From Thiomonas sp. FB-6 (lineage in GTDB: Bacteria > Pseudomonadota > Gammaproteobacteria > Burkholderiales > Burkholderiaceae_C), in NCBI RefSeq assembly GCF_000377645.1, contig NZ_KB898471.1:505084-569083 (forward strand): a stretch of DNA of 64,000 nucleotides. The letters run 5' to 3'. Made by a program: the position numbers and the translations under genes. The notes beneath the pieces are model-generated. The model was given only the letters and a program-made list of their open reading frames with translations. It was not told the DNA's origin and did not search any database. This document shows, piece by piece, positions 409-17,476 of this stretch (position 1 is its first letter; each line of letters starts with the position of its first letter).

Positions 409-2229
409 ATGAGCCAGACCCCTCCCGCCGACAACCGCAAAGTCGTCACCGGCGTGCAAAAGATGACCCCTTCCGAGGCCTTTGTCGAAACCCTGGTCGC
501 CAATGGGGTGACAGACATCTTCGGCATCATGGGCTCGGCCTTCATGGATGCGATGGACATCTTCGCGCCGGCCGGCATTCGCCTGATTCCCGTGGTGCAC
601 GAGCAAGGCGCCGCGCACATGGCCGATGGCTACGCCCGCGTCAGCGGCCGCCACGGCGTGGTGATCGGGCAGAACGGCCCCGGCATCAGCAACTGCGTCA
701 CGGCGATTGCCGCCGCCTACTGGGCGCACAGCCCGGTGGTCATCGTCACCCCCGAGACCGGCACCATGGGCATGGGCCTGGGAGGCTTCCAGGAGGCCAA
801 CCAGCTGCCGATGTTCCAGGAGTTCACCAAGTACCAGGGTCACGTGGTCAACCCCAAACGCATGGCCGAGTTCACCGGCCGCTGCTTCGACCGCGCCATC
901 AGCGAGATGGGACCGACCCAGCTCAACATCCCGCGCGACTACTTCTACGGCGAGATCCAGTGCGAGATCCCGCGCCCGATGCGCGTGGACCGCGGAGCCG
1001 GCGGCGAGCAGAGCCTGAACGACGCGGCCGAACTGCTGGCGCAGGCCAAGTTCCCGGTGATCCTCGCCGGCGGCGGCGTGGTCATGGGCGACGCGGTCGA
1101 GGAATGCAAGCAGCTGGCCGAACGCCTGGGCGCTCCGGTGGTCACCGGCTACCTGCGCAACGATGCCTTCCCCGCCAGCCACCCGCTGTGGGCCGGCCCG
1201 CTGGGCTACCAGGGCTCCAAGGCGGCCATGAAGCTGATCGCCCAGGCCGACGTGGTGGTGGCGCTGGGCTCGCGCATGGGCCCCTTCGGCACCCTGCCGC
1301 AGCACGGCATGGACTACTGGCCCAAGAACGCCAAGATCATCCAGGTCGAGGCCGATCACACCAACCTGGGCCTGGTGAAAAAGATCACGGTGGGCATCTG
1401 CGGCGACGCCAAGGCGGCCGCCAAGGCCATCGCGCAGCGCCTGCAGGGCCGCACGCTGGCCTGCGACGCGAGCAAGGCCCAGCGCGCCGACACCATCCGC
1501 TCCGAGAAGGCGACCTGGGAGAAGGAACTCGACGCCTGGACCCACGAGCTCGACGCCTACAGCCTGGACATGATCGAGGAGGCGAAGCAGGAGAAGCCCT
1601 TCAGCGGCGGCGACTACCTGCACCCGCGCCAGGTGCTGCGCGAACTCGAGAAGGCCATGCCGCCGCGCGCCATGGTGTCCACCGACATCGGCAACATCAA
1701 CTCGGTGGCCAACAGCTACCTGCGCTTCGAGGAGCCGCGCAGCTTTTTCGCGCCCATGAGCTTCGGCAACTGCGGCTACGCGCTGCCGACCATCATCGGC
1801 GCCAAGCTGGCGGCGCCCGACCGCCCGGCCATCGCCTACGCCGGCGACGGCGCCTGGGGCATGAGCATGGTGGAGATCATGACCTGCGTGCGCCACGACA
1901 TCCCGGTCACCGCGGTGGTGTTCCACAACCGCCAGTGGGGCGCGGAGAAGAAGAACCAGGTGGACTTCTACAACCGCCGCTTCGTCGCCGGCGAGCTGGA
2001 AAGCGAGAGCTTCGCCGGCATCGCGCGCGCCATGGGCTCGGAAGCCATCGTGGTCGACCGCCTGGAGGACGTGGGCGCGGCGCTCAAACGCGCTGTGGAC
2101 ATGCAGATGAACCAGCGCAAGACCTGCGTGATCGAGATCATGTGCACCCGTGAACTGGGCGACCCCTTCCGGCGCGACGCGCTGAGCAAGCCGGTGCGCT
2201 TCCTCGACAAGTACAAGGACTACGTGTGA
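409..2229 (+). CDS. xsc: Sulfoacetaldehyde acetyltransferase
   Basis: ThDP enzyme of 606 residues that splits sulfoacetaldehyde with phosphate into acetyl phosphate and sulfite, the step where taurine and sulfoacetate catabolism converge. The N-terminal PYR domain carries the conserved Glu65 (VVHEQGAAHMADGYAR). A central domain follows, and the C-terminal PP domain has the ThDP/Mg motif starting at GDG 479-481 (GDGAWGMSMVEIMT...NRQWGAEKKNQ). The residue pattern is that of Xsc rather than acetolactate synthase. The ATG at 409 has GGAG 10 bases upstream; an earlier ATG at 343 would add 22 uncharacteristic residues. The stop overlaps the GTG start of pta, so translation is coupled. Both sulfonate branches in this island feed this enzyme. 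Confidence 0.95.
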   Translation: MSQTPPADNRKVVTGVQKMTPSEAFVETLVANGVTDIFGIMGSAFMDAMDIFAPAGIRLIPVVHEQGAAHMADGYARVSGRHGVVIGQNGPGISNCVTAIAAAYWAHSPVVIVTPETGTMGMGLGGFQEANQLPMFQEFTKYQGHVVNPKRMAEFTGRCFDRAISEMGPTQLNIPRDYFYGEIQCEIPRPMRVDRGAGGEQSLNDAAELLAQAKFPVILAGGGVVMGDAVEECKQLAERLGAPVVTGYLRNDAFPASHPLWAGPLGYQGSKAAMKLIAQADVVVALGSRMGPFGTLPQHGMDYWPKNAKIIQVEADHTNLGLVKKITVGICGDAKAAAKAIAQRLQGRTLACDASKAQRADTIRSEKATWEKELDAWTHELDAYSLDMIEEAKQEKPFSGGDYLHPRQVLRELEKAMPPRAMVSTDIGNINSVANSYLRFEEPRSFFAPMSFGNCGYALPTIIGAKLAAPDRPAIAYAGDGAWGMSMVEIMTCVRHDIPVTAVVFHNRQWGAEKKNQVDFYNRRFVAGELESESFAGIARAMGSEAIVVDRLEDVGAALKRAVDMQMNQRKTCVIEIMCTRELGDPFRRDALSKPVRFLDKYKDYV

Positions 2230-3248
2230 AGGCCGGCCCCGTCCCCCCGGGCGGGGTCGCGCCCGGCGCGGGTTGCGGGGGCGCCGGCGAGTCCCGCGGC
2301 GACCCGGGCTCGTCCCGCGACTTTCCGCGCCTGCGCGAGCTCATCGAGCGCGCCCGCCTCGTCGCCTCGCGGGAACGCGCGCGCGTCGGGCTGGTGCATC
2401 CCTGCGATGCGCTGGCCCTGCAGGCCGCCCGGTTGATCCGCGACGAAGGCGTCGCGCAGCCCCTGCTGGTCGGCAACCGGCGCCTGATCGAGGTCGCGGC
2501 CGAGCAGGCCGGCGTCGACGCGCGGGACTTCGAGATCGCCGAGACCGCCGCCGACGCGCCCGCGGCGGCGGCCCGTGCGGTCGAGCTGGCCCGCGAGGGC
2601 ACGCTGCGCGCGCTGATGAAGGGCTCGCTGCACACCGACGAGCTGATGTCCGCCGTGGTGCACCGGGAAACCGGCCTGCGCTCGAGCCGGCGCATCAGCC
2701 ACGCCTTCGTGTTCGACCTGCCCCGCTATCACAAGCTGCTGGCCCTGGCCGATTGCGTGGTGAACATCACGCCGGACCTGAAGTCCAAGCTCGACATCGT
2801 CGGCAATGCGCTGGACCTGCTACGCCGCATCGGCGTCGCCCACCCCTCGGCGGCGGTCGTGGCCGCGGTGGAGACCGTGAACCCGGCGATCGCCGCGACC
2901 CTGGACGCCCAGGAACTGGTGCGCCTGGGGCGCGAGGGCCGCTGGGGCGACGCCGACATCGAGGGCCCGCTGGGCTTCGACAACGCCTTCTCCGCGCAGG
3001 CGGCGCGCACCAAGCGCATCGAGTCCGTGCACGCCGGAGACTTCGACCTCATGGTCGTGCCCGACCTCAACGCCGGCAACATGCTCTACAAGAGCTTCGT
3101 CTACGTGGGCGGCGGCGAGTGCGCCGGACTGGTGCTGGGCGCACGCGTGCCCATCGTGCTGACCTCCCGCGCCGATTCGCTCACCGCGCGTGTGGCCTCC
3201 GTCGCGCTGGCGGCGATCGCCACCCGCGAGGACGCGGCGCAGCCCTGA
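2226..3248 (+). CDS. pta: Phosphate acetyltransferase, short type (Xsc partner)
   Basis: 340-residue enzyme of the phosphate acetyl/butyryltransferase family (VGLVHPCDALALQAARLI near the start, GPLGFDNAFS and VVPDLNAGNMLYKSFVYVGGG near the end). It converts the acetyl phosphate from Xsc into acetyl-CoA, conserving the bond energy; short Pta enzymes are typical xsc partners. The start is GTG at 2226, overlapping the xsc stop, with AAGGA six bases upstream. The first ~30 residues are Gly/Pro/Ala-rich and encoded by a GC palindrome resembling the intergenic repeats of this genome, so the functional N-terminus may be nearer FPRLRELIERARL. No better start codon is in frame there. Confidence 0.88.
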   Translation: MKAGPVPPGGVAPGAGCGGAGESRGDPGSSRDFPRLRELIERARLVASRERARVGLVHPCDALALQAARLIRDEGVAQPLLVGNRRLIEVAAEQAGVDARDFEIAETAADAPAAAARAVELAREGTLRALMKGSLHTDELMSAVVHRETGLRSSRRISHAFVFDLPRYHKLLALADCVVNITPDLKSKLDIVGNALDLLRRIGVAHPSAAVVAAVETVNPAIAATLDAQELVRLGREGRWGDADIEGPLGFDNAFSAQAARTKRIESVHAGDFDLMVVPDLNAGNMLYKSFVYVGGGECAGLVLGARVPIVLTSRADSLTARVASVALAAIATREDAAQP

Positions 3249-3397: not shown

Positions 3398-4951
3398 TCA
3401 GCCGCGCGGATGGGAGGCGGTTCCGGCGATCGCCGGCCGGCGCCCTCGCCGGCGCAGCCAGTGCAGCAATTCGCGCGAGACGGGGTAGAACACCGCGAAG
3501 GCGGACATCGCCAGCAGGGTGCCGCTGAGGGGCTCGATGAAGGGCGCCGTCCAGTTGCCGTGGTGCACCACCATGCTGCGCATGAAGTTGGTCTCGCCGA
3601 TGGGCCCGAGGATCGCGCCCAGCACCATGGGCGAGATCGGGAAACGGTACTTCTCGAACAGATAGCCCAGCACGCCGAAGATCAGGATCATCCAGACGTC
3701 GGACATGGAGTTGCGGTCGGCGTAGGCCCCCACCAGGCAGAACAGCACCACGATGGCGTTGAGCAGGTACTGCGGGATCAGCAGCACGCGCACGACCAGG
3801 CGGATCCAGAAAAAGCCGATCAGGCACATGCCGATCACCGCCACGAACATCGAGGCCAGGATGGTGTAGACCGTCACCCGCGAGGCCGGATCCGACAGCA
3901 GCATGGGCCCGGGCTGCACGCCGTGCAGCAGGAAGGCCGCCAGGATCACCGCGGTGGCGGCGCTGCCGGGAATGCCCAGCGTGAGCATGGGGATCAGGTG
4001 TCCGGCCACCGAGGCGGTGGAGCCGATCTGCGGCGCCACGATGCCGCTGGGGTGCCCGGTGCCCAGCTTGGCGCGCTCGCGTCCGTACTGCTTCTCCACG
4101 CCGTAGCAGATGAAGGAGGTGATGGTCGCGCCGGCTCCCGGAACCACCCCCAGCAGCGTGCCCAGCACGCTGCTGCGCAGGATGGTGCCGCGCACCCCCC
4201 AGATCTCGCGCAGGCGCGGGAACGTGGTCTGCACCTTCACCTTGGCATCGGAGGGCGCGCCCTTGATGGCCAGGCCCTGCCCGATGCGCTTGAACACCTC
4301 GCCCAGGCCGTACATGCCCACCAGCACCGCGACCAGCTGCACGCCGTCGCCCAGGATGGGCACGCCGAAGGTGTAGCGACTGACGCCGTAGATGCTGTCC
4401 ACGCCGATGCAGGCCACCAGCAGCCCCAGGGAAAGGCTCACGAAGGCTTTGACCAGCGACTTGCCGGCCAGCGAGACCACCGTGGTCAGGCCGAACACGA
4501 TGGCGGCGAAGTAGTCCTCGGAATTGAACTTCAGGGCCACGTCGGTCAGCGGCTGGGTCAGCGCGACCATCACCGCGGAAGACACCAGGCCGCCGATCAG
4601 CGCGGCCACCAGCGCCCAGCCCAGCGGCTTGGCCGCGCCCTCGCGCTTGCCCATGGTGTAGCCGTCCCACAGCAAGGGAACGTCGTTGGGCTCGCCCGGG
4701 ATGCGGTAGAGGATGGTGGTGAAACACCCGCCGTAGGTGCCGGAGAAGTAGATCGAGGTGAGCAGGATCACCGCCGGCTCGATGTCCATCTTGTAGGTGA
4801 AGGGCAGCGCCAGGATCACGCCCATGACGAAACCCAGCCCCGGCATGATGGACACCAGCATGCCCACCAGGATGCCCACGACCAGCATGAGCAGGTCGTA
4901 GGGCTGGAACACGTGCATCAGCCCGATGGCCAGATCGTGCAGAACGTTCAT
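3398..4951 (-). CDS. tctA: Tripartite tricarboxylate transporter, large membrane subunit (TctA family)
   Basis: 517-residue, very hydrophobic protein with about a dozen membrane segments, the usual length for TctA. Family hallmarks are visible: an N-terminal IMPGLGFVMGVILALPFTY segment and a mid-protein GVVPGAGATITSFICYGVEK segment. The start ATG at 4951 overlaps the tctB stop by one base (TGATG). TctA is the transport channel that works with the small subunit TctB and periplasmic TctC. The operon begins with a CoA ligase assigned to sulfoacetate activation, so the likely substrate is sulfoacetate or another C2 sulfonate rather than citrate. This is context inference; TctA sequence does not reveal substrate. 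Confidence 0.88.
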   Translation of the reverse strand: MNVLHDLAIGLMHVFQPYDLLMLVVGILVGMLVSIMPGLGFVMGVILALPFTYKMDIEPAVILLTSIYFSGTYGGCFTTILYRIPGEPNDVPLLWDGYTMGKREGAAKPLGWALVAALIGGLVSSAVMVALTQPLTDVALKFNSEDYFAAIVFGLTTVVSLAGKSLVKAFVSLSLGLLVACIGVDSIYGVSRYTFGVPILGDGVQLVAVLVGMYGLGEVFKRIGQGLAIKGAPSDAKVKVQTTFPRLREIWGVRGTILRSSVLGTLLGVVPGAGATITSFICYGVEKQYGRERAKLGTGHPSGIVAPQIGSTASVAGHLIPMLTLGIPGSAATAVILAAFLLHGVQPGPMLLSDPASRVTVYTILASMFVAVIGMCLIGFFWIRLVVRVLLIPQYLLNAIVVLFCLVGAYADRNSMSDVWMILIFGVLGYLFEKYRFPISPMVLGAILGPIGETNFMRSMVVHHGNWTAPFIEPLSGTLLAMSAFAVFYPVSRELLHWLRRRGRRPAIAGTASHPRG

Positions 4952-6626: not shown

Positions 6627-8228
6627 TCAGGCGGGTTGCAGGCGTAGCGAGCGACGCACTGCCTCCGCCGGAAGTTCGGTGAGTTTCAAGCGCTGGATCT
6701 TTCCCGAAGGTCCGCGCGGAAGATCGTCGACGATGTGGCAGGCCCTGGGCATCTTGTACCGACCCAGATGCTGCAGGCAATGCTCGCGCAGCTCCTGCTC
6801 CTCCAGCCCCGCCCCGGGCCGCAGCACCAGGTAGGCCTCGATATTCTGACCGTAATTGCTGTCCTTCACACCCACGGCGGCGGCCTCCAGCACCGAGGCA
6901 TGCTTGAGCAAGGCTTCATCGATCTCGCGCGGCGCGATGTTCTCGCCGCCCTTGATGATCAGTTCCTTCGCGCGTCCCGTGATGAAGTAATAGCCGTCGG
7001 CGTCGCGGTAGCCGAGGTCGCCGGTGCGGAACCAGCCGTCGGCGGTGAAGGCCTTGGTGGTCTCCTGGGGATTCTTCAGGTATCCGCGCATGACGTTGCC
7101 GCCGCGCAGCTGGATCTCGCCCACCTCGCCGTCGCCCAGCACGGCGCCGTCGGCCCCGGCCACGCGGGCCTCGGTGCCCGAGGGGCGCCCGATGCTGCCG
7201 ATCTTGCGCAGTTCGCGCTGCACGGGATTGCTGAACGAAGGGGCGGCGGTCTCCGTCAGCCCCATGGTCTCGATGATGTCCACGCCGAAGCGCTGCTCGA
7301 AGGCGCGATGGTGCTCGGGCGGCAGCGCCGCCGACGCGGAACGGCAGAAGCGGATGCCGGAGAGTTCGCGCGGCCCGAGTTCGGGCGGAGCCGACTGGAT
7401 CAGGTAGGCGATGATGGTCGGCACCGCGTTCACCCACGTGCAGCGGGTTTGCAGCGCGTCGCGCCAGAAGCTCGAGGCCGAGAAACGCGCCGGCATGGCC
7501 AGTGAACCGCCGTGGGTCAGCGGCGTGACCAGGTTCACCACCAGTGCGTTGATGTGGTACAGGGGCAGCGGCGCGAGGCCGCGGTCGGCCGGACCCAGCC
7601 GGTGCTCGCGGCTGATGTTCACCCCGTTGGCGCACAGATTGCCGTGGCTGAGCAGCACGCCCTTGGGCGTGCCGGTGGTGCCGGAGGTGTACATCAGCAG
7701 CGCGGCGTCGTCCAGCTCCGGAGGCCGCGCCGGCTGGCGCGCCACGCCGCGCGCGCGCTCCAGCCAGCCGGCGTCGCCGATCACCTCGATGTGCAGCTCG
7801 CGCGAGGCCTGCGCCGCCAGGCTGCGCAGCAGGCTTTCGTGCTCGGGCACCGTCAGCACCAGGCGCGTCTCGCTGTGCTCGAGGATGTAGGCCAGTTGCG
7901 CGGGCTGCGACAACAGGTTGATGGGATTGACCACCATGCCCTGGTACATCGTGGCCAGGATCAGCATCGCCGCTTCCAGCCCGTTGGGCATGAACAGCGA
8001 GACCACGTCGCCCTGCGCCAGGCCATGGGAGGCGAAATACGCGCCGAGTTCCGCGCACACGCGCTGCACCTCGGCGAACGAGAGTTCGCGCCCGCTGTCC
8101 GTGGCCACGAAATAGATGGCTCCAGGATCGCGTTCGGCATTCGTGTCCACGAGGGACTGGATGCTGCACAACTGGCCGTTCTCGGCGGGCAGCAGGGCTT
8201 GGGCGAAAGGGCTCTCGGGACGGTTCAT
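6627..8228 (-). CDS. sauT: Acyl-CoA synthetase, probable sulfoacetate-CoA ligase (SauT-like)
   Basis: 533-residue AMP-forming ANL enzyme. The P-loop TSGTTGTPKG is at residues 181-190, followed by the family motifs GLTETAAPSF, GWFRTGDLGYRD and GRAKELIIKGGENIAPREID, and the catalytic C-terminal Lys510 (GPSGKIQR). It would activate a carboxylate to an acyl-CoA via an acyl-AMP. Neighbouring genes are a CoA-acylating aldehyde dehydrogenase, an IclR regulator and xsc-pta, the gene content described for sulfoacetate degradation in Cupriavidus necator (sauRST plus transporter). I therefore assign sulfoacetyl-CoA synthesis. It leads the minus-strand operon that continues into tctC-tctB-tctA. No clear ribosome-binding site precedes the ATG at 8228. 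Confidence 0.72.
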   Translation of the reverse strand: MNRPESPFAQALLPAENGQLCSIQSLVDTNAERDPGAIYFVATDSGRELSFAEVQRVCAELGAYFASHGLAQGDVVSLFMPNGLEAAMLILATMYQGMVVNPINLLSQPAQLAYILEHSETRLVLTVPEHESLLRSLAAQASRELHIEVIGDAGWLERARGVARQPARPPELDDAALLMYTSGTTGTPKGVLLSHGNLCANGVNISREHRLGPADRGLAPLPLYHINALVVNLVTPLTHGGSLAMPARFSASSFWRDALQTRCTWVNAVPTIIAYLIQSAPPELGPRELSGIRFCRSASAALPPEHHRAFEQRFGVDIIETMGLTETAAPSFSNPVQRELRKIGSIGRPSGTEARVAGADGAVLGDGEVGEIQLRGGNVMRGYLKNPQETTKAFTADGWFRTGDLGYRDADGYYFITGRAKELIIKGGENIAPREIDEALLKHASVLEAAAVGVKDSNYGQNIEAYLVLRPGAGLEEQELREHCLQHLGRYKMPRACHIVDDLPRGPSGKIQRLKLTELPAEAVRRSLRLQPA

Positions 8229-8340
8229 GGAAGCTGTGGCCGGTTCGGCATCGCGTGTTCGCCCCTGCCCGCGTGCCGCCTGGAAAACCGGCTGCTGCGG
8301 GGGGCGTGTCGGCAATTTAGGGAAAAAATGCCAACGAACA

Positions 8341-8356
8341 GTCCCGTTTTTCGCAA
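8341..8356 (+). promoter_or_regulatory. Putative SauR operator copy 1 (GTCCCG-TTTTT-CGCAA)
   Basis: 15 of 16 bases are identical to the element in the xsc leader (355-370). It forms an inverted pair with copy 2, centres about 48 bases apart. Confidence 0.5.
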
Positions 8357-8388
8357 TCGATCGACAATTGAAGCGCCGTGATGTTTCG

Positions 8389-8404
8389 ATGCGTTTTTCG
8401 GGAC
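8389..8404 (-). promoter_or_regulatory. Putative SauR operator copy 2 (GTCCCG-AAAAA-CGCAT)
   Basis: Read on the minus strand, both outer blocks GTCCCG and CGCA match copy 1 while the five central bases are A instead of T. Conservation of the outer blocks but not the spacer argues for a real two-part protein site. Confidence 0.5.
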
Positions 8405-8528
8405 GATTCCAGGCCGATTTCCGCTCCGAGAACTGGATACAGTTCAGTCCATGGCCTGCGCGTGGGCTTTGCGCGCTCGCCTTTCGCCGCCCGAACCCCC
8501 ACCGCCTGCCGTGTCCAGCCGAACAGCC

Positions 8529-9341
8529 ATGACCTCGAACCAGTCCAACGCCGCGGCGGTGCGCGCATTTCGCGTGCTCGAGCTGCTCAGCACCGCCGAA
8601 TCCATGAGCCTGATGCAGATCTCCGAAGGCCTGCAGTTGCCCAAGCAGACGGTGCACCGCATCCTCAAGACCCTCGGCGCCGCGCAGCTGGTGGTGCGCA
8701 ATCTCGACGGCCAGGGCTACGAATGCGGGCCGCGAGTGCGCCAGATGAGCGTGTCGGCCCTGATGCACACGGGCCCGGCGACGGCGCGCCGCGCGGTGCT
8801 GCGCAAGCTGGGCGAAAGCCTGGGCGAGACGGTGAACCTGACGGCGCTGGACGGCGACCTCATCGTCTACCTCGACCGCGTGGAGACCGACTCTCCGCTG
8901 CGCATGCACCTGCAGCCCGGCTCGCACGTGCCGCTGCATTGCACCTCCAGCGGCAAGCTGCTTCTCAGCCTGCAGCCCGCGGCGATGCGCAACCGCATCG
9001 TCGACTCGCTGCCGCTGCGCAAGATGACCGAGCACACCATCACCGACGTGGCGCGCCTGCGCCAGGAACTGGCCGACACGCGCCGCCGGCGCATCGGCAT
9101 GAACGATCAGGAATTCATCCAGGGCATGGTGTCGATCGCCGTGCCGGTGATGCGCGACGCCTATCGCGCATGGGGCGCGGTGGCCGTGCAGGCCCCACTG
9201 GCCCGCCATGACATCGAGGCGCTTCTGCGCCATGTGCCGGCCATGCGCGAAGCCGCCGACGCCATCGCCGAGATGGTGCCCCCGTCGTCGCGCAAGGCAC
9301 GCGCGCCGGCCCAGGAACCCGCCACCGACGAGGCCGCCTGA
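8529..9341 (+). CDS. IclR-family regulator (SauR-like)
   Basis: 270-residue regulator. The N-terminal winged helix (VRAFRVLELLS...MSLMQISEGLQLPKQTVHRILKTLG) is followed by an IclR effector domain with the LHCTSSGKLLLSLQP and IAVPVMRDAYRAWGAVAVQAP signatures. I start at ATG 8529, which aligns with IclR N-termini; ATG 8451 would add 26 unstructured residues. Neither has a clear Shine-Dalgarno. It is divergent from the sauT-like gene and 69 bases upstream of sauS, so it probably senses sulfoacetate or its CoA ester and controls both transcripts. The matching operator in the xsc leader suggests it may also govern xsc-pta. Confidence 0.82.
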   Translation: MTSNQSNAAAVRAFRVLELLSTAESMSLMQISEGLQLPKQTVHRILKTLGAAQLVVRNLDGQGYECGPRVRQMSVSALMHTGPATARRAVLRKLGESLGETVNLTALDGDLIVYLDRVETDSPLRMHLQPGSHVPLHCTSSGKLLLSLQPAAMRNRIVDSLPLRKMTEHTITDVARLRQELADTRRRRIGMNDQEFIQGMVSIAVPVMRDAYRAWGAVAVQAPLARHDIEALLRHVPAMREAADAIAEMVPPSSRKARAPAQEPATDEAA

Positions 9342-9410: not shown

Positions 9411-10844
9411 ATGGACATGAAGACTTCCCCTTCTCCCGAGCACGACGGCGTGCGCCGCCAGGTGGCCGAATGCGTGGCGCGCGCCCGCGCCGCGCAACGC
9501 GTGTACGACGGCTTCGACCAGGAACGCGTCGACGAGGTGGTGCTGGCCGCCGGCTGGGCCATCATGGAGCCGGCGCGCAACCGCGCGCTGGCCGAGCTCG
9601 CCGTCGCCGACACCGGCCTGGGCAACGTCGAGGACAAGGTGATCAAGAATCACCGCAAGACCCTCGGGCTGCTGCGCGACCTGCGCGGCGCGAAGTCGGT
9701 GGGCGTGATCTCCGAGGACAAGGCCAAGGGGGTGATCGAGATCGCGCGCCCGATCGGCGTGGTCGGCGCCGTGACGCCGTCGACCAACCCCGGCGCGACC
9801 CCGGCCAACAAGATCATCAACGCGCTCAAGGGGCGCAACGCCGTCATCCTGGCGCCGTCGCCCAAGGGCCACGGCACCAGCACCCTGCTGCTGCGCTACA
9901 TCCACGAGGAGCTCGACCGCGTGGGCGCCCCGCGCGACCTGGTGCAGCAGCTGGCGGCTCCGGTGAGCAAGGCGGCCACGCAGGAGCTGATGCGCCAGGT
10001 GGACCTGGTGGTGGTCACCGGCTCGCAGAACAACGTGCGCGCGGCCTATGAAAGCGGCACCCCGGCGATCGGCGTCGGCGCGGGCAACGTTTCGGTGATC
10101 GTCGACGAGACGGCCGATCCGGCGCAGGCGGCCGAGAAGATCCGGCGCTCCAAGACCTTCGACAACGCCACCAGTTGCTCCTCCGAGAACAGCGTGGTGA
10201 TCGTCGAGGCCGTGTACCAGCGCATGCTCGACGCGTTGCGCGAGCAGGGAGGCGTGCTGCTGGACGCGGCCCAGAAGCAGCGCCTGCAGCAGACCATGTG
10301 GCCCGCCGGCAAGCTGTCGGCCGCGGTGACCGCCAAGGCCGCGCCGGTGATCGCCGCGCTGGCCGGGCTGCACGGCCCGGCTTTCGACAGCGCGCGCTTC
10401 CTCATGGTGGAGGAGACCGGCACCGGCGAGCAGCACCCCTTCTCGGGCGAAAAGCTCTCCCCGGTGCTGACGGTGTATCGCGCGCGCGATTTCGAGCACG
10501 CGCAGGACATCGTGCGGGCCATCTACGCCTACGAGGGCGCGGGCCATTCCATCGGGCTGCACTCGCAACGTCCGCAGCGCGCGCTGCACCTGGGACTGGT
10601 GATGCCGGCCTGCCGCATCATCGTGAATCAGGCGCACTGCTTCGCCACCGGCGGCAGCTTCGACAACGGACTGCCCTTCTCGCTGTCCATGGGTTGCGGC
10701 AGCTGGGGGCGCAACAGCATCTCTGATAACCTGAACTACAAGCACTATCTCAACATCACGCGCGTCGCCGCCCCGTGCACGCCGGACGAGCCGAGCATGG
10801 ACGACATGTTCGGCGCGTACCGCAGGCGCCACGGGCTCGCCTGA
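9411..10844 (+). CDS. sauS: CoA-acylating aldehyde dehydrogenase, probable sulfoacetaldehyde dehydrogenase (SauS-like)
   Basis: 477-residue enzyme of the CoA-acylating aldehyde dehydrogenase group (EutE/AdhE-N type). The catalytic cysteine is Cys256 in FDNATSCSSENS, and the cofactor region contains PIGVVGAVTPSTNPGATPANK. In this context it would reduce sulfoacetyl-CoA to sulfoacetaldehyde, which Xsc then cleaves. GAGGA lies seven bases before the ATG. It follows the IclR gene on the same strand and is followed 48 bases later by the tauR-like gene. Acylating dehydrogenases for other short aldehydes look similar, so the substrate rests on the neighbourhood with a CoA ligase and xsc. Confidence 0.75.
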   Translation: MDMKTSPSPEHDGVRRQVAECVARARAAQRVYDGFDQERVDEVVLAAGWAIMEPARNRALAELAVADTGLGNVEDKVIKNHRKTLGLLRDLRGAKSVGVISEDKAKGVIEIARPIGVVGAVTPSTNPGATPANKIINALKGRNAVILAPSPKGHGTSTLLLRYIHEELDRVGAPRDLVQQLAAPVSKAATQELMRQVDLVVVTGSQNNVRAAYESGTPAIGVGAGNVSVIVDETADPAQAAEKIRRSKTFDNATSCSSENSVVIVEAVYQRMLDALREQGGVLLDAAQKQRLQQTMWPAGKLSAAVTAKAAPVIAALAGLHGPAFDSARFLMVEETGTGEQHPFSGEKLSPVLTVYRARDFEHAQDIVRAIYAYEGAGHSIGLHSQRPQRALHLGLVMPACRIIVNQAHCFATGGSFDNGLPFSLSMGCGSWGRNSISDNLNYKHYLNITRVAAPCTPDEPSMDDMFGAYRRRHGLA

Positions 10845-10892: not shown

Positions 10893-12386
10893 ATGAACCA
10901 GCGCACCAACACCCTGCTGTGGAAACAGCTGCTGCAACGCAGCGCACGCAGCAACCTGAGCCTGCAGGGCCAGATCCGCGAAATGCTGGTGTCGGCCATC
11001 CTCGACGGCCTGATCGAGCCGGGGAGGCCCGTGCCCTCCGGACGCGAACTGGCCGAACAGCTGGGCGTGGCGCGCAACACCGTGGTGCTGGCCTACAAGC
11101 AGCTGGCCGACGAGGGCTACCTGCTGTCGCGCCAGCGCAGCGGGCACTTCGTGAACGCCGAATTCGTGGCCGGGCTGCGCGCGCACGGGCCGGGCGCGGA
11201 GGACAGCGGCGCGGCCTCCGCCCCCATCGACTGGGATAGCCGCCTGCGCCTGCGACCCACCCGCCAGCGCAGCATCCACAAGCCGGCCGACTGGCAGAAG
11301 TACCCCTACCCTTTCCTGTACGGGCAGTTCGACGCCTCGCTGTTTCCCACCGCCAACTGGCGCGAATGCTGCCTCAAGGCGCTGTCCGTGCTGGACATCC
11401 GCGACTGGGCTCCCGACCACATCAACCGCGACGACGAGACCCTGGTGCAGCAGATCCGCACCCGCGTGCTGCCGCGCCGCGGCGTGTGGGCTCAGGCGGA
11501 CGAGATCGTGGTCACGGTGGGAGCCCAGCACGCCCTGTACATGGTGGCCGACCTGCTGCTGGGCGAGCACAGCACGCTGGCGCTGGAGAACCCGGGCTAC
11601 CCCGACGCGCGCAACATCTTCGCCGCGCGCACCTCGCGTCTGCTGCCCATCGACGTGGACGCCGACGGCCTGCCGGTGGACCAGCGCCTGCACGGGGCCG
11701 ACTACCTGTACGTCACGCCCAGCCATCAGTGCCCCACCGGCGTGACCATGCCGCTGGAACGCCGGCAAAGTCTGCTGCACTGGGCCGAGCGCAACGACCT
11801 GATCATCATCGAGGACGATTTCGAGAGCGAGAACCGCTTCGGCGGCGAGCCCATTCCGGCGCTCAAGAGCCTGGACCACAAGCATCGCGTGATCTACATC
11901 GGCAGTCTGTCCAAGAGCTGGGCGCCGGGGCTGCGCCTGGGCTACATCGTCGCTCCGGCGCCGCTGGCCCGCGAGTTCCGCGCGCTGCGCCGCCTGATGC
12001 TGCGCCACCCCTCGACCTTCGTGCAGCGGGCCTTCGCGCTGTTCCTGTCCCTGGGCCACCACGACGCCCAGTTGCGGCGCATCGCCATGGCCCAGCAGCA
12101 GCGCAGCCAGGCCGTGCTGCGGGCGCTGGCCGAGCACCTGCCGCAATGCGAAGTCACCCCGGTGATCGGCGGCGGCTCGTGCTGGCTGCGCCTTCCCGAC
12201 GGCATCGACACCATCGAGCTGGCGCGTCGCGCCGCCGAGCAAGGCGTGCTGCTGGAGTCCGGCGACGTGTTCTTCTTCCAGCAACCCGCCCCCGGATCCT
12301 TCCTGCGCCTGGGCTGGCAATCGATCCCCGACAAGGCCATCGAACCCGGAATCGCACTGCTGGGCAAAACCCTACAAAGCCTGTAA
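10893..12386 (+). CDS. tauR: MocR-type (GntR/aminotransferase) regulator, TauR-like
   Basis: 497-residue fusion typical of MocR proteins: a GntR winged helix (LIEPGRPVPSGRELAEQLGVARNTVVLAYKQL) joined to a class I aminotransferase fold with the PLP-binding lysine at 341 (IGSLSKSWAPGLRLGY). Such regulators sense an amine or amino acid through PLP. TauR of Rhodobacter capsulatus activates taurine genes through direct repeats containing CTGGAC, and CTGGA-containing direct repeats occur here before both tauX and tauY. That supports TauR as the name. It probably shares a transcript with sauS and is convergent with the tauB end of the ABC operon. The start has no obvious ribosome-binding site. Confidence 0.82.
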   Translation: MNQRTNTLLWKQLLQRSARSNLSLQGQIREMLVSAILDGLIEPGRPVPSGRELAEQLGVARNTVVLAYKQLADEGYLLSRQRSGHFVNAEFVAGLRAHGPGAEDSGAASAPIDWDSRLRLRPTRQRSIHKPADWQKYPYPFLYGQFDASLFPTANWRECCLKALSVLDIRDWAPDHINRDDETLVQQIRTRVLPRRGVWAQADEIVVTVGAQHALYMVADLLLGEHSTLALENPGYPDARNIFAARTSRLLPIDVDADGLPVDQRLHGADYLYVTPSHQCPTGVTMPLERRQSLLHWAERNDLIIIEDDFESENRFGGEPIPALKSLDHKHRVIYIGSLSKSWAPGLRLGYIVAPAPLAREFRALRRLMLRHPSTFVQRAFALFLSLGHHDAQLRRIAMAQQQRSQAVLRALAEHLPQCEVTPVIGGGSCWLRLPDGIDTIELARRAAEQGVLLESGDVFFFQQPAPGSFLRLGWQSIPDKAIEPGIALLGKTLQSL

Positions 12387-12553: not shown

Positions 12554-13291
12554 TCAATGCGCCAGGATGCCCATGGCCTGCTTTTTCAGCTCCAGGAACT
12601 GGGGCTCGAAGCTGGTCTCGGGCGTGCGCGGGCGCTCGAGCTCGATGGGCACGTCCAGCGCCACCCGGCCCGGGCGCGCCGACAGCACCACCAGGCGCGT
12701 GCCCAGGAAGATCGCCTCGTCGATGTCATGGGTGATGAACACGATGGTGCAGCGCAGCTTCTCCCACAGCGAGGTGAGGAAGGACTGCATGGACGCGCGG
12801 GTCTGCGCGTCCAGCGCGCCGAAGGGCTCGTCCATCAACAGAACCTTGGGCTTCATCACCAGCGCGCGGGCGATGGCCACGCGCTGCTGCATGCCCCCGG
12901 ACAGCTCGTAGGGCTTGTGGCGCGCGAAACCTTCCAGGCCGATGATGCCCAGGATCTCGGCACTCTCGCGCCGGCGCTGCTCGCGCCGCATGCCCTGCAG
13001 TTCCAGCCCGAACTCGATGTTGTCCTGCACGTTCAGCCAGGGGTACAGGCCCGCCTGCTGGAACACCACCACGCGGTCGGCGCCGGGGCGGCTCTTGACC
13101 TCCCCGTCGATGTAGATGGACCCGCGCGACGGCGTGGTCAGGCCCGCCAGCAGGTGCAGCAGCGTGGTCTTGCCGCAACCCGAGGATCCGAGCACGGTGA
13201 CGAACTCGCCGCCCTGGAACTGCAGGTTGATGTTCTCCAGCGCGGTGGTGGCGCCGAAGGTCTTGTACAGGGAATCGATGACGATGTTCAC
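12554..13291 (-). CDS. tauB: Taurine ABC transporter, ATPase subunit
   Basis: 245-residue ABC ATPase of the nitrate/sulfonate/taurine group. Walker A is GSSGCGKTT, the Q-loop is VFQQAGLYPWL, the signature is LSGGMQQRVAIARAL, and Walker B is VLLMDEPFGALD followed by ITHDIDEAIFLG. The start is GTG at 13291 with GAGGA upstream. It is the last gene of the tauX-tauC-tauA-tauB operon and energises uptake through TauC. Sequence alone does not separate taurine from other alkanesulfonates; tauR, tauX and tauY nearby favour taurine. Confidence 0.87.
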   Translation of the reverse strand: MNIVIDSLYKTFGATTALENINLQFQGGEFVTVLGSSGCGKTTLLHLLAGLTTPSRGSIYIDGEVKSRPGADRVVVFQQAGLYPWLNVQDNIEFGLELQGMRREQRRRESAEILGIIGLEGFARHKPYELSGGMQQRVAIARALVMKPKVLLMDEPFGALDAQTRASMQSFLTSLWEKLRCTIVFITHDIDEAIFLGTRLVVLSARPGRVALDVPIELERPRTPETSFEPQFLELKKQAMGILAH

Positions 13292-13343
13292 GTGCCTGTC
13301 CTCGGCGGGGCGGCGCTCGCCGCCCCGCGGTTGAAACGCCGGG

Positions 13344-14363
13344 TCAATGCGCGAGGTGCTCGGAGTACTGCGGGGCGACGTTGTCGGCGAAGCTCGCCGG
13401 CACCTGCTGGATACGCCCGATCTGCTGCAACACCTTGGCCGTGTTGACCAGGGTCATGTAGGTGGCCGAGGTCTTCACGCCCGCGCCCTGGCCCATGCCC
13501 TTGGGCGAACTCTGGTCGGCGCCGGAGAACAGCTCGTAGCCGGCCAGTTCCTTGCGCGCCACCGGCACCGTCACGCCGGTCTGGCGCGCCATGTCGGCGA
13601 TCGCCTGCTCGGTGTCCTTGCGGGTGATCTGGTAGCCCTCGTCCATGGCCGCCACGAAACCGCGCACCAGCGCCGGGTGCGCGGCCGCCCACTTGGAATC
13701 GGCGATGCACACGTTGTAGCTCGAGGCCGTGCGCGGCAGGTCGCCGTCGGTCTTGAGCACCTTGCCTCCGGCGGCCTGCAGCGCGCTGAACACGGGATCC
13801 CAGACGATGGCCGCGTCGATCGCGCCGGTCACCCAGGAGGTGCGCATCTGCGGCGGGGCCATGTTGATCTGGGTCACCGAGTCGTAGGCCACGTGCGCCT
13901 CGGCGAGGAAGGTGGCCAGCTCGAAGGAGGCCTGGGAGCCGGCGACGATGGCGATCTTCTTGCCCTTCAGGCCGGCCACCGTGGTGATGCCGCTGCCGGG
14001 CTTGACCACGATGCCCGCGGCCGTGGTGTAGCGCTCCTGGTTGTACACGATGGTCATCGGCAGGCCCTGCGCGATCGCCGTGACCAGCGGCGGCACGCCC
14101 AGGCCGCACATGAAGGTCAGGCTGTTCGAGGCCAGCGCGCTCATCGCCGCGGGGCCGGAACTGAACATCTTGTACTCCACCTTGGCATGCATGTCCTTCT
14201 CGAACAGGTGCCGGGCCATGGACACCATGTAGGGATCGGCGCCGTTGTTCTCGTAGCCGATGATCACGTCGGGCTTGTCGGCCGCCATGGCCGCCATCGG
14301 GACCAGGCCTGCTGCCAGGGTGCAGGCGGCGAGCGCGCCGCGCATCCAGGATCGCTTGTTCAT
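13344..14363 (-). CDS. tauA: Taurine ABC transporter, periplasmic binding protein
   Basis: 339-residue secreted binding protein. The signal peptide (basic MNKRSWMR, hydrophobic core, AMA cleavage near residue 27) precedes a mature protein starting ADKPDVIIGYENN. SsuA/TauA-type features include GLGVPPLVTAIAQGLPMTIVYN, LKGKKIAIVAGSQASFELATFL and TGAIDAAIVWDPVFSAL. AGGAGA precedes the ATG. It lies between permease and ATPase genes, 58 and 52 bases from them. It captures taurine or a close sulfonate in the periplasm. Confidence 0.87.
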   Translation of the reverse strand: MNKRSWMRGALAACTLAAGLVPMAAMAADKPDVIIGYENNGADPYMVSMARHLFEKDMHAKVEYKMFSSGPAAMSALASNSLTFMCGLGVPPLVTAIAQGLPMTIVYNQERYTTAAGIVVKPGSGITTVAGLKGKKIAIVAGSQASFELATFLAEAHVAYDSVTQINMAPPQMRTSWVTGAIDAAIVWDPVFSALQAAGGKVLKTDGDLPRTASSYNVCIADSKWAAAHPALVRGFVAAMDEGYQITRKDTEQAIADMARQTGVTVPVARKELAGYELFSGADQSSPKGMGQGAGVKTSATYMTLVNTAKVLQQIGRIQQVPASFADNVAPQYSEHLAH

Positions 14364-14421
14364 GTGCTCTCTCCTGCGTTGGGGGATGTACTCGAAGCCC
14401 TGCGGGCCGTGGATGAAAATG

Positions 14422-15273
14422 TCAGTTGTGCCCGCGCCAGGGCACGACCAGGCTTTCGATCTTGCGGATCACCAGTTCCATCGCGTAGCCGATGAGCCCG
14501 ATGACCACGATGCCGACGATGACGATGCTGACCTGCAGCGCCTGCCCGGCGAACTGCACCAGCCAGCCCAGGCCGCTGCTGGCGGCGATCAGCTCGGCCG
14601 CCACCAGGCAGGTCCAGGCCACGCCGATGCCCACGCGCATGGCGGTGAAGATCTCCGGCATCGCCGACGGCAGGATCACCTTGCGGAAGATCTGCGCGTT
14701 GCTCGCGCCCAGCGTGCGCGCCACCGACACGCGCAGCGGCGGCGTGCTCTTCACCCCCGAGATGGTGCCGATGATGATCACCGGGATCGTGCCCACCAGG
14801 ATCAGGATGGCCTTGGGAAGCTCGCCGATGCCGAACCACACCACCAGCAGCGGGATGTAGGCCAGCGGCGGCACCGGGCGCACGAACTGCAGCAAGGGAT
14901 CGACGATGTCGAACACCACCTTGTTGCGCGACATCAGCAGGCCCACCGGGACGCCGATGACGATGGCGCCGACGAAGCCGATCAGGATGCGAAAACAGCT
15001 GATGCCGATGTCGGCGCTCAGCGACTGTCCGCCGTAGCCCTGGCGCACGATGGCCACGAAGGCCTTCCACACCGCCACCGGCGAAGGCAGCGCGAAGGGA
15101 GGGAACACCCCCGCGACGGCCACCAGCTGCCAGGCGACCAGCGCGCCCAGCAGCACCAGCACGGTGATCCACTGCGGCGCGAGTTTCAGGCGCGCCCTGC
15201 GCTCGGGGCGGGCGGGAGGGGGCGGCGCGGAAACGTTCATGTTCTGGCCTCGCGGTTCGGGGATCGCACTCAT
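14422..15273 (-). CDS. tauC: Taurine ABC transporter, permease
   Basis: 283-residue permease with about six transmembrane helices and the EAA-type loop RTLGASNAQIFRKVILPSAMPEIFTAMRVGIGVAWTCLVAAE, as in TauC/SsuC. The chosen ATG at 15273 has GGAGG eight bases upstream; a later ATG at 15240 is possible. It begins only 14 bases after the tauX-like stop, so the two are cotranscribed. Confidence 0.87.
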   Translation of the reverse strand: MSAIPEPRGQNMNVSAPPPPARPERRARLKLAPQWITVLVLLGALVAWQLVAVAGVFPPFALPSPVAVWKAFVAIVRQGYGGQSLSADIGISCFRILIGFVGAIVIGVPVGLLMSRNKVVFDIVDPLLQFVRPVPPLAYIPLLVVWFGIGELPKAILILVGTIPVIIIGTISGVKSTPPLRVSVARTLGASNAQIFRKVILPSAMPEIFTAMRVGIGVAWTCLVAAELIAASSGLGWLVQFAGQALQVSIVIVGIVVIGLIGYAMELVIRKIESLVVPWRGHN

Positions 15274-15287
15274 GGAAGGGGCCTCCG

Positions 15288-15665
15288 TCAGCGAGCGGGG
15301 ATGCGTTCCTTGCGGAACGCGTTCTTCACCGCGATGCGGCCGCCGGCGAAGGTGAACACGTCGACCATGCGGGCCTCGATGCGCACACCGTCGGCGCGCG
15401 TGCCGCGGAAGGTGGACTCGGTGACTCCGCGCTCGCCGCATACGAAATGCACCGGGTCCAGCCAGGCGGCGTCGGGAAAGGTCTTCCAGGCCAGTTCGAA
15501 GCCGGCACGCACCTCGTCGCGGCCGCGGAAACTGCGGCCGAGCACGTCCGGGCCGCCCACCGCATGGAATACGCAGTCGTCCGCCATGAAGCTCATCAAT
15601 GCTTCGAGATCATGCGCATTCCACGCGTCTGAAAATGCCTGGAGAGTATCTACGGTCGGACTCAT
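15288..15665 (-). CDS. tauX: SnoaL/NTF2-like small protein, probable taurine dehydrogenase small subunit (TauX)
   Basis: 125-residue protein with a SnoaL/NTF2 fold pattern (LQAFSDAWNAHDLEALMSFMADDCVFHAVGGPD, then FRGRDEVRAGFELAWKTFPDA). In Paracoccus and relatives, taurine dehydrogenase consists of a small TauX and a FAD-containing TauY encoded beside tauABC, tauR and xsc; this protein has the size and position for TauX, although here it is divergent from tauY. I start at ATG 15665 because the alternative at 15749 lies inside the paired CTGGA operator and upstream of the -10 element. It leads the tauX-tauC-tauA-tauB operon. An unrelated SnoaL-like hydrolase or isomerase is the main alternative. 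Confidence 0.62.
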   Translation of the reverse strand: MSPTVDTLQAFSDAWNAHDLEALMSFMADDCVFHAVGGPDVLGRSFRGRDEVRAGFELAWKTFPDAAWLDPVHFVCGERGVTESTFRGTRADGVRIEARMVDVFTFAGGRIAVKNAFRKERIPAR

Positions 15666-15707: not shown

Positions 15708-15769
15708 AATATAGTGATGCGCCGCCTCGCCTGTGTAGATCCAGTTCATCGCTTTTGATTGGTCCAGAT
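15708..15769 (-). promoter_or_regulatory. tauX promoter with paired CTGGA direct repeats (TauR site)
   Basis: On the minus strand ATCTGGACCA begins at 15769 and AACTGGATCT begins at 15746, a 23-base period (about two helical turns). A -10 element TATATT lies at 15713-15708, 33 bases from the start of the second repeat, with no consensus -35, as expected for an activated promoter. MocR regulators bind direct repeats of this geometry. Confidence 0.7.
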
Positions 15770-15932
15770 CGGCGGCCGGGACTCTGCTCCGTGGGAGCCT
15801 CGGCTTTCGTTCAGGAATCGCGGGTTTCTACCCCTCTGGAAAACCCGGATGGTTCCGTGTCCGGACGGCTTCGCACCACGATTGTGCATCGCGCAAAATC
15901 GGTGGACGATTATGGTGCGGCGCACGCACCGA

Positions 15933-15993
15933 ATCTGGACCACCATTTTGGTGCGATCTGGATCCATGCCCGCCCAAAATCGGAATCTATCAT
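15933..15993 (+). promoter_or_regulatory. tauY promoter with paired CTGGA direct repeats (TauR site)
   Basis: ATCTGGACCA begins at 15933 and ATCTGGATCC at 15956, again 23 bases apart and in the same order (CTGGACC then CTGGATC) as on the tauX side. TATCAT at 15988-15993 fits a -10 element, 32 bases from the start of the second repeat. The 163-base core between the two operator pairs (15770-15932) also holds a CGGGTTT/AAACCCG inverted repeat (15821-15827, 15841-15847) of unknown role. Confidence 0.7.
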
Positions 15994-16048: not shown

Positions 16049-17476
16049 ATGAATGTCTCCGCCGAAACCGAAGCGCGCTCCGCGCAGCAGCCCTACGACC
16101 CCCGCTACGACCCCCTGGTGAACGCCACGCCCGGACAGGGCAGGGACTACGCGCCCACCTACTGGGTCGGGACGGCCGGGCCCCCTCCGGCCGACGACGG
16201 CCCGGTGCGCGGCGACCTGGACGTCGACGTGGCCGTTGTCGGCTCGGGCTTCACCGGGCTGTCCGCCGCGCTGTTCCTGGCGCGCGAGCACGGCATCCGC
16301 GCCACCGTGCTGGAAGCCAACCAGACCGCCTGGGGCTGCACCAGCCGCAACGGCGGCCAGGGCCAGAACGCCAGCGGCCGCCTGTACCGCTCGCAATGGA
16401 TCGCACGCTGGGGGCGCGACGTGGCCGTGCGCCTGGACCGGGAGATCCGCGAGGGCTTCGAGACCTTCAAGTCCCTGGTGGCCGAATTTCCCGAGTGCGA
16501 ACCCCAGCCGGGCGGGCATCTGTACATCGCGCACCGGGACAAGAAGATGGACTTCCTGCGCAACGAGGCGCAGGTCATGCGCGAGGTGTTCGGCTACGAC
16601 ACCCGCATGCTCAGCCGCGCCGAGGTGCACGAGCGCTACGTGCGCGACGCCGAATGCAGCGGCGCGCTGCACGAGCCCGACGGCATCGGCGTGCATCCGC
16701 TGAAACTGGCCTTCGCCTACCAGCGCGCCGCGCGCGCGCTGGGCGTGCGCATCCACACCGCCAGCCCGGTCCAGCGTTTCGAGGGCGCCAAGGGCCGCTA
16801 CCTGCTGCACACACCGGGCGGCGTGGTGCGCGCGCGCGCGGTGGCCTTCGCGACGGGCGGCTACACCAGCAACGCGCTGCACCCGCGCCTGCGCAACAAG
16901 ATCCTGCCCATCCTGTCGAACTCGCTGGTCACGCGCGTGCTGAGCGACGACGAGATCGAGGCCACGGGATTCCGCACCCACGAGGTGATCACCGACACGC
17001 GCACGCTGCGCTTCTACTACCGCCTGCTGCCCGACCGCCGGGTGCAGATCGGCAGCCGCAGTTCGATCACCGGCGCCGACGCGCCCCATCCCCGGCACCT
17101 GCAACTGCTCATCGGCGGACTGCATCGCAAGTTCCCCGCGCTGCGCGGAATCGACATCGACTATTCGTGGTGGGGATGGGTGGACGTCAGCCACGACATG
17201 ATGCCGCGCATCACCCAGCCCGACCCCGCCGAACAGGTGTTCTACGCCCTGGGCTACGGCGGCAACGGCGTGTCCTTCTCGGCCCATGCCGGGCGCCGCC
17301 TGGCCCAGCGCGTGGCCGGCAAGGCGCCGCCGGTGCTGGACCTGCCGATCTACGCCGGCGAGCTCGAGTACCCCAACGCCTTCGACCTCGTGCGCTCGCC
17401 GCTGCTGGCGCCCATGCGCCGGTTGGGCCAGCGCTTCCTGTACCGCTGGTACTACCTGCGCGACGAAAGGCTTTGA
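16049..17476 (+). CDS. tauY: FAD-dependent amine oxidoreductase, probable taurine dehydrogenase large subunit (TauY)
   Basis: 475-residue DAO-family flavoprotein. The dinucleotide-binding motif GSGFTG is at residues 65-70 (DVAVVGSGFTGLSAALFLAREHG), followed by SRNGGQGQNASGR; late motifs are YALGYGGNGVSFSAHAGRRLAQ. It would oxidatively deaminate taurine to sulfoacetaldehyde, the Xsc substrate. Start choice: an in-frame ATG at 15992 overlaps the predicted -10 box, so ATG 16049 is preferred, giving a ~48-base leader. No taurine-pyruvate aminotransferase is present in the window, consistent with a dehydrogenase route. A glutamylputrescine-oxidase-like enzyme is the main alternative from sequence alone. 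Confidence 0.68.
   Translation: MNVSAETEARSAQQPYDPRYDPLVNATPGQGRDYAPTYWVGTAGPPPADDGPVRGDLDVDVAVVGSGFTGLSAALFLAREHGIRATVLEANQTAWGCTSRNGGQGQNASGRLYRSQWIARWGRDVAVRLDREIREGFETFKSLVAEFPECEPQPGGHLYIAHRDKKMDFLRNEAQVMREVFGYDTRMLSRAEVHERYVRDAECSGALHEPDGIGVHPLKLAFAYQRAARALGVRIHTASPVQRFEGAKGRYLLHTPGGVVRARAVAFATGGYTSNALHPRLRNKILPILSNSLVTRVLSDDEIEATGFRTHEVITDTRTLRFYYRLLPDRRVQIGSRSSITGADAPHPRHLQLLIGGLHRKFPALRGIDIDYSWWGWVDVSHDMMPRITQPDPAEQVFYALGYGGNGVSFSAHAGRRLAQRVAGKAPPVLDLPIYAGELEYPNAFDLVRSPLLAPMRRLGQRFLYRWYYLRDERL

Follow-up and report, generated by a model that had tools for sequence, protein, structure and literature searches.

Mirrored CTGGAYC repeats between tauX and tauY are predicted operators of the MocR-type regulator TauR in Thiomonas sp. 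FB-6

In the DNA analyzed here, the two subunits of a taurine dehydrogenase are encoded by genes that face away from each other. The window, a 64-kb stretch of Thiomonas sp. FB-6 DNA, contains tauX (15288..15665, minus strand) for the small subunit, an SnoaL/NTF2-like protein of 125 amino acids (Pfam SnoaL_2), and tauY (16049..17476, plus strand) for the large FAD subunit (Pfam DAO; 61% identity to the S. meliloti gene). In many tau loci, relatives of TauX and TauY are encoded next to each other. Downstream of tauX, also on the minus strand, lie tauC (14422-15273), tauA (13344-14363), and tauB (12554-13291), which encode a taurine-type ABC transporter; the matches of these three genes (12554..15273) to taurine transporter models score below the curated cut-offs. 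A gene for a MocR-type regulator with a GntR winged-helix domain and an aminotransferase-like domain, tauR, is located at 10893..12386 on the plus strand.

Analysis of the tauX/tauY intergenic region identified the arrangement CTGGACC-N16-CTGGATC twice, once on each strand. The plus-strand pair (15935-15964) points toward tauY and consists of box 1, CTGGACC (15935..15941), and box 2, CTGGATC (15958..15964). Its minus-strand counterpart (15767-15738) points toward tauX and consists of CTGGACC (15761..15767) and CTGGATC (15738..15744). The preliminary description of this DNA had reported two such mirrored pairs with a 23-base period, and both are exact on their respective strands. Each pair is followed by a putative −10 element, TATCAT for tauY (15988..15993, plus strand) and TATATT for tauX (15708..15713, minus strand, also recovered by a promoter scan), with the end of box 2 placed 23 bp (tauY) or 24 bp (tauX) before it. 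The distance from the start of the second repeat to the −10-like box, earlier given as 32-33 bases, needs correction to 30 bases for tauY and 31 for tauX. The gene starts proposed with the repeats are supported, as the ATG codons at 15665 (tauX, minus strand) and 16049 (tauY, plus strand) are kept in an alignment of the genus; longer open reading frames starting at 15749 (minus strand) or 15755 (plus strand) would cross the operators.

Both pairs resemble sites of the published TauR regulog in being direct repeats with a CTGGAC/CTGGAY core, in a box spacing of two or three helical turns in the direction of the regulated gene (period 23), and in lying upstream of taurine genes in a locus that contains a TauR gene. 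The preliminary description had also stated that CTGGAC direct repeats are described for TauR of Rhodobacter capsulatus, and the consensus CTGGACYTAA is indeed given for them (PMC5320631). The full consensus is not matched by the boxes of the window (CTGGACCACC/CTGGATCCAT and CTGGACCAAT/CTGGATCTAC), in which the core is kept and the TAA tail is absent. TauR motifs are, however, called similar rather than identical across regulons in the same source, and the claim is therefore narrowed to the wider TauR family.

Conservation of the pairs was analyzed in 28 genomes of the genus (the Thiomonas sp. FB-6 genome included), 12 of which carry tauY (E up to 1e-100). Counts on the tauY side cover 11 genomes, as the G006 contig contains no upstream sequence. 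A tauY-directed pair at period 23 is present in 11/11, with box 2 as CTGGATC, CTGGCTC, or CTGGCCC, and the 23-bp distance from its end to the tauY −10 is the same in all 11, the −10 reading TATGAT in one. The divergent tauX/tauY arrangement (divergon) occurs in 10 of these 11 genomes, the G025 copy being split over two contigs; in G021, tauX does not adjoin tauY. All 10 divergons (the one in the window included) have a tauX-directed pair at period 23, with one mismatch in box 1 of a single genome, and all 10 place TATATT 24 bp after box 2. Thus, the search of relatives that the preliminary description had suggested, for CTGGAYC pairs 23 bases apart, finds both sides kept in every same-genus divergon.

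Column-by-column comparison of the nine unbroken intergenic regions showed that the box columns have a mean pairwise identity of 96%, with 25/28 invariant, compared with 60% and 83/341 for the remaining columns. Across these nine loci, box 1 of tauY, box 2 of tauX, and the tauX −10 are invariant, box 2 of tauY has one variable column (A/C), and 5/7 columns of box 1 of tauX are invariant. When sets of four 7-base windows were chosen at random 20,000 times, 6 sets were as conserved as the boxes. This conservation argues for a function of the box pairs.

Outside the genus, 68 regions upstream of tauX, tauY, tauA, and tauR were scanned for pairs at periods of 9-45. In the direction of the gene, period 23 was found in 7 regions at up to 1 mismatch (no other period in more than 1), in 9 regions at up to 2 mismatches (versus 5 for period 22), and in 21 regions at up to 3 mismatches (versus 6 for period 22). 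In the opposite direction, the counts for period 23 were 3, 4, and 8 at these limits, with period 22 (5 regions) ahead of period 23 (4 regions) when up to 2 mismatches were allowed. These counts vary with the mismatch limit, many outside boxes being loose matches with up to 3 mismatches in 14 positions, and pairs at other periods are also present within the outside stretches that were retrieved.

The pairs outside the genus tend to accompany TauR genes. Sixteen outside loci, two of them from S. meliloti, encode TauR within the stretch, and 13 of these have a period-23 pair toward tauX, tauY, or tauA (up to 3 mismatches of 14); S. meliloti is counted among the 13, although its better pair is at period 22. 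Among loci with no TauR in the stretch, a period-23 pair toward the gene was found in 0/6 (L024, L064, L065, L068, L069, and L082), and L054 comes without upstream sequence. The three TauR loci that yielded no period-23 pair in the main scan (L066, L070, and L057) have other boxes, which are after-the-fact fits found by eye or with looser scans. In L066 (at 8599) and L070 (at 8990), which represent another family, STGGTAC boxes stand at period 23, so that the half-site is changed and the geometry kept; these are the only STGGTAC pairs at this period in 423 kb of 22 loci scanned at periods 15-35. In L057, two-mismatch pairs at period 22 flank a tauX/tauY divergon on both sides. A further divergon, in L056, has pairs on both sides, the tauY-side one with 3 mismatches. 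The L056 stretch also contains a second tauX-like gene (4198-4569, minus strand) with an upstream period-23 pair at 3 mismatches.

Several lines of evidence suggest that the likely binder of the boxes is the MocR-type TauR encoded at 10893-12386. This protein has the MocR architecture (Pfam PF00392 and PF00155), includes GabR among its solved structural relatives, and contains the PLP lysine at residue 341 in the sequence GSLSK. It is the best match in the genome to S. meliloti TauR (the copy of strain MABNR56 served as reference), with 45% identity and 390.9 bits compared with 128.8 bits for the next protein. In a tree with five MocR paralogues from the same genome, some of them fragments or on long branches, the TauR clade is split from the paralogues with 100/100 support and includes S. 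meliloti TauR. The S. meliloti protein has been shown experimentally to be a transcriptional activator of taurine genes (PMC4254191).

It is quite unlikely, in our assessment, that the boxes are instead bound by another regulator of the neighborhood, either the IclR-type protein encoded at 8451-9341 or PdxR, which is a MocR-type regulator of vitamin B6 genes. The cluster does include an IclR gene, and the name that NCBIfam gives to the MocR protein is PdxR, as its score of 360.9 exceeds the cut-off of 320 for NF052282. This cut-off is also exceeded by S. meliloti TauR (346.3), so the model cannot separate PdxR from TauR and the PdxR name is not to be trusted for the protein of the window; automatic annotation may misname TauR as PdxR. 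Location counts against TauR, because tauR is 3.3 kb from its targets and is not divergent beside one of them, and MocR regulators are commonly encoded divergently beside their target. L082, a locus with IclR genes and no TauR in the stretch, offers one loose period-23 pair that points away from tauY. Against an IclR-type binder, the acyl-CoA ligase and IclR genes are separated by an intergenic region with other conserved elements (GTCCCGTTTT...TTTTTCGGGAC) and no period-23 pair, the pairs near the IclR gene are two-mismatch ones at period 34 (8123) and period 25 (8543), and period-23 pairs occur in TauR loci that have no match to the IclR query (e.g. L055, L059, L061, L062, and L084). As an aside, the loose pair of L082 (3 mismatches) lies upstream of tauY and is directed toward a DUF3311/sodium-solute symporter gene pair.

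Taken together, conservation within the genus, the co-occurrence of the pairs with TauR genes in the loci compared, and the consensus published for TauR agree with the earlier assignment of the pairs as predicted TauR operators. We therefore favor, with a probability of about 0.87, the reading that the intergenic region holds two independent and opposed TauR operators, one per promoter, each activating in the presence of taurine and PLP. The sequence of the boxes, their geometry, their conservation, and their association with TauR genes are its observed basis. A TauR dimer would bind in head-to-tail fashion to two CTGGAYC boxes whose 23-bp period amounts to about 2.2 helical turns, and box 2 would immediately adjoin the −35 position; when taurine and PLP are present, the dimer would recruit RNA polymerase to a promoter with a recognizable −10 and a poor −35. 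One operator would drive tauX-tauC-tauA-tauB, for the small dehydrogenase subunit and the transporter, and the other would drive tauY, for the large subunit. With one operator per transcript, we propose, both subunits would be induced together although they are transcribed apart. Binding by TauR, control by taurine and PLP, activation, the start sites, and the operon are each assigned by analogy with work on S. meliloti and R. capsulatus.

The promoters are consistent with such an activator. If transcription starts about 7 bp after the −10 element, as is the general rule, box 2 would cover positions from about −43 to −36, and box 1 those from about −66 to −59. The promoter scan found a possible weak −35 (TACACA) for tauX directly after box 2, and for tauY it found no sigma-70-type match. 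As box 2 touches a poor −35, the arrangement would be that of a class II activator.

An alternative in which TauR does bind, yet mainly represses when taurine is lacking, or in which a single TauR assembly contacts both operators at once through a DNA loop, also has a low probability. It can draw on the report that MocR regulators often repress their own genes besides activating targets (PMC5320631). The position of box 2 speaks against repression, as its end lies 23-24 bp before the −10, where a poor −35 would start and where an activator is expected. As for a fixed loop, the gap between box 1 of tauX and box 1 of tauY takes values of 131, 166, 167, 177, and 190 bp over the nine loci, with no constant helical phase. 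Looping between the two operators was rejected on this ground, and the same variation is the reason that they are probably independent. Autoregulation of tauR through this motif is not indicated either, since no CTGGAYC pair was found upstream of tauR.

In judging two independent operators, the frequency of the motif also has to be considered. Single CTGGAYC words are common, with 56 in the window versus 19.6 expected. Exact matches to CTGGAYC-N16-CTGGAYC number two in the whole 64-kb window, namely the two intergenic pairs, and six in the 4.2-Mb genome, these two included; the other four are probably coding, because each falls within a run of 150 or more codons free of stops. The rarity resides in the pairing of CTGGAYC, not in the word. 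When the 380-bp intergenic region was shuffled 50,000 times with its dinucleotides preserved, a same-strand CTGGAYC pair of any period from 9 to 60 on either strand appeared 37 times, and the mirrored same-period arrangement did not appear (0/50,000), which agrees with the earlier statement that such agreement in order, spacing, and orientation is unlikely by chance. A motif-blind test, in which exact pairs of whatever 7-mer counted if they were mirrored and had the same period, was passed by 539 of 2000 shuffles; it is uninformative and was not used as support, so that significance rests on the published CTGGAC word together with conservation. The idea that these are chance repeats in a GC-rich genome where CTGGACC is a common word has a negligible probability, as the excess of single words and the non-significant motif-blind mirror test that speak for it are set against pairs conserved in 10/10 divergons and a period preference that extends across genera.

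A SauS-like acylating sulfoacetaldehyde dehydrogenase gene (9411..10844, plus strand; NCBIfam NF047625, 787.8 bits versus a cut-off of 600) is located directly upstream of tauR. The lower pathway is represented by xsc (409-2229, plus strand; TIGR03457 over cut-off) and a pta-like gene (2226-3248, plus strand), the latter assigned from its translation and position. An acyl-CoA ligase gene is also present in the window. The order xsc-pta-transporter-ligase-IclR-SauS-TauR-TauBACX-TauY-MFS is kept in the six relatives with enough sequence (L092-L097, read jointly with L071-L074, L076, and L078), with one extra ligase match in L096. We infer that this is a combined taurine and sulfoacetate locus whose arms meet at sulfoacetaldehyde. 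The tauR gene starts 48 bp past the end of the SauS-like gene on the same strand; the two may be cotranscribed, which would tie the supply of TauR to the sulfoacetate arm.

Control of xsc-pta by TauR through the same motif was considered and rejected, because the part of the window that precedes xsc, 408 bases in length, contains no CTGGAYC pair. An IclR gene adjoins xsc in six relatives, and xsc-pta may be under the control of such a gene. The intergenic region between the acyl-CoA ligase (minus strand) and IclR (plus strand) genes, at about 8170-8450, has conserved blocks of its own, including the inverted repeat GTCCCGTTTT...TTTTTCGGGAC (seven loci aligned), a possible candidate for an IclR operator.

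Between the two promoters lies a palindrome, GGGTTT-N13-AAACCC (15822..15846), which points to a possible further regulator. All 12 arm bases are kept in 10/10 divergons of the genus, with spacer letters that vary, and the palindrome is single-copy in each of the 10 assemblies with the divergon. Six other genomes of the genus, G014 among them, have one copy elsewhere, and around the copies in the other five (G003, G006, G011, G021, and G022) no match to a window protein was found. The reversed control pattern occurs in 4/28 genomes. The IclR protein was rejected as the binder, as the ligase/IclR intergenic region (seven aligned loci) contains no such palindrome and the window has just this one exact copy.

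The period itself differs between lineages. Period 22 is found in five alphaproteobacterial loci, those of Cereibacter, Paracoccus, Limimaricola, Shinella, and S. meliloti (L104, L106, L107, L108, and L081 taken together), in the region from tauR to the first tau gene. In a tree of 22 proteins, whose bootstrap is unsettled and whose period labels were assigned by hand, a single branch sets apart the six proteins labelled period-22, but its support is only 76/68 and the place of L057 is unsure; the five alphaproteobacterial ones are grouped at 100/100. It is a tentative suggestion that the divergon acts as a two-input switch private to this locus, with two TauR operators for the split subunits and another factor on the palindrome, and that the TauR period shifted as the regulator lineages split (alphaproteobacterial loci have 22, whereas an Acinetobacter plasmid and most loci from the order to which the window belongs have 23), one family having taken up the STGGTAC half-site at an unchanged period. 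The contrast between periods 22 and 23, together with the STGGTAC variant, provides a natural series for studying how spacing and sequence are recognized by a MocR dimer in head-to-tail arrangement.

A search of titles and abstracts in mainly open-access literature found none that describes the layout of a tauX/tauY divergon or of a combined sulfoacetate-taurine cluster. Nor did that literature yield an account of the palindrome, of a mirrored divergon in which the subunits are split, or of the contrast between periods 22 and 23, although a box-distance figure in PMC5320631 may already show this contrast.

The GabR operator of Bacillus subtilis has other boxes and another effector. Like the sites predicted here, it consists of spaced direct repeats and belongs to a MocR regulator (PMC5320631); for direct repeats of MocR regulators, that source gives a spacing of two or three helical turns. 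The alphaproteobacterial tau loci (Cereibacter sphaeroides 2.4.1, Paracoccus, Limimaricola, Shinella, and S. meliloti) likewise have CTGGAY boxes, located in the region that separates tauR from the tau operon. They differ in having period 22, and the four annotated ones have tauX, tauY, xsc, and pta together on one strand. The TauR operators of R. capsulatus were reportedly the subject of work by Wiethaus in 2008. Unlike R. capsulatus and the TauR regulog, the window has boxes without a TAA tail, a single intergenic region that carries two mirrored operators, tauX and tauY on separate transcripts, and a tauR gene that is not divergent from a target. The likenesses are direct CTGGAC-type boxes, a MocR-type TauR, and tauXY plus tauABC as targets (Suvorova and Rodionov 2016, PMC5320631). 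Because TauR direct repeats (CTGGACYTAA in R. capsulatus) and betaproteobacterial TauR regulons with tauXY and tauABC, the latter predicted, have already been published (PMC5320631), the predicted operators between tauX and tauY belong to a known kind; they indicate where the promoters and gene starts of a taurine locus are likely to lie and offer a clean, testable operator.
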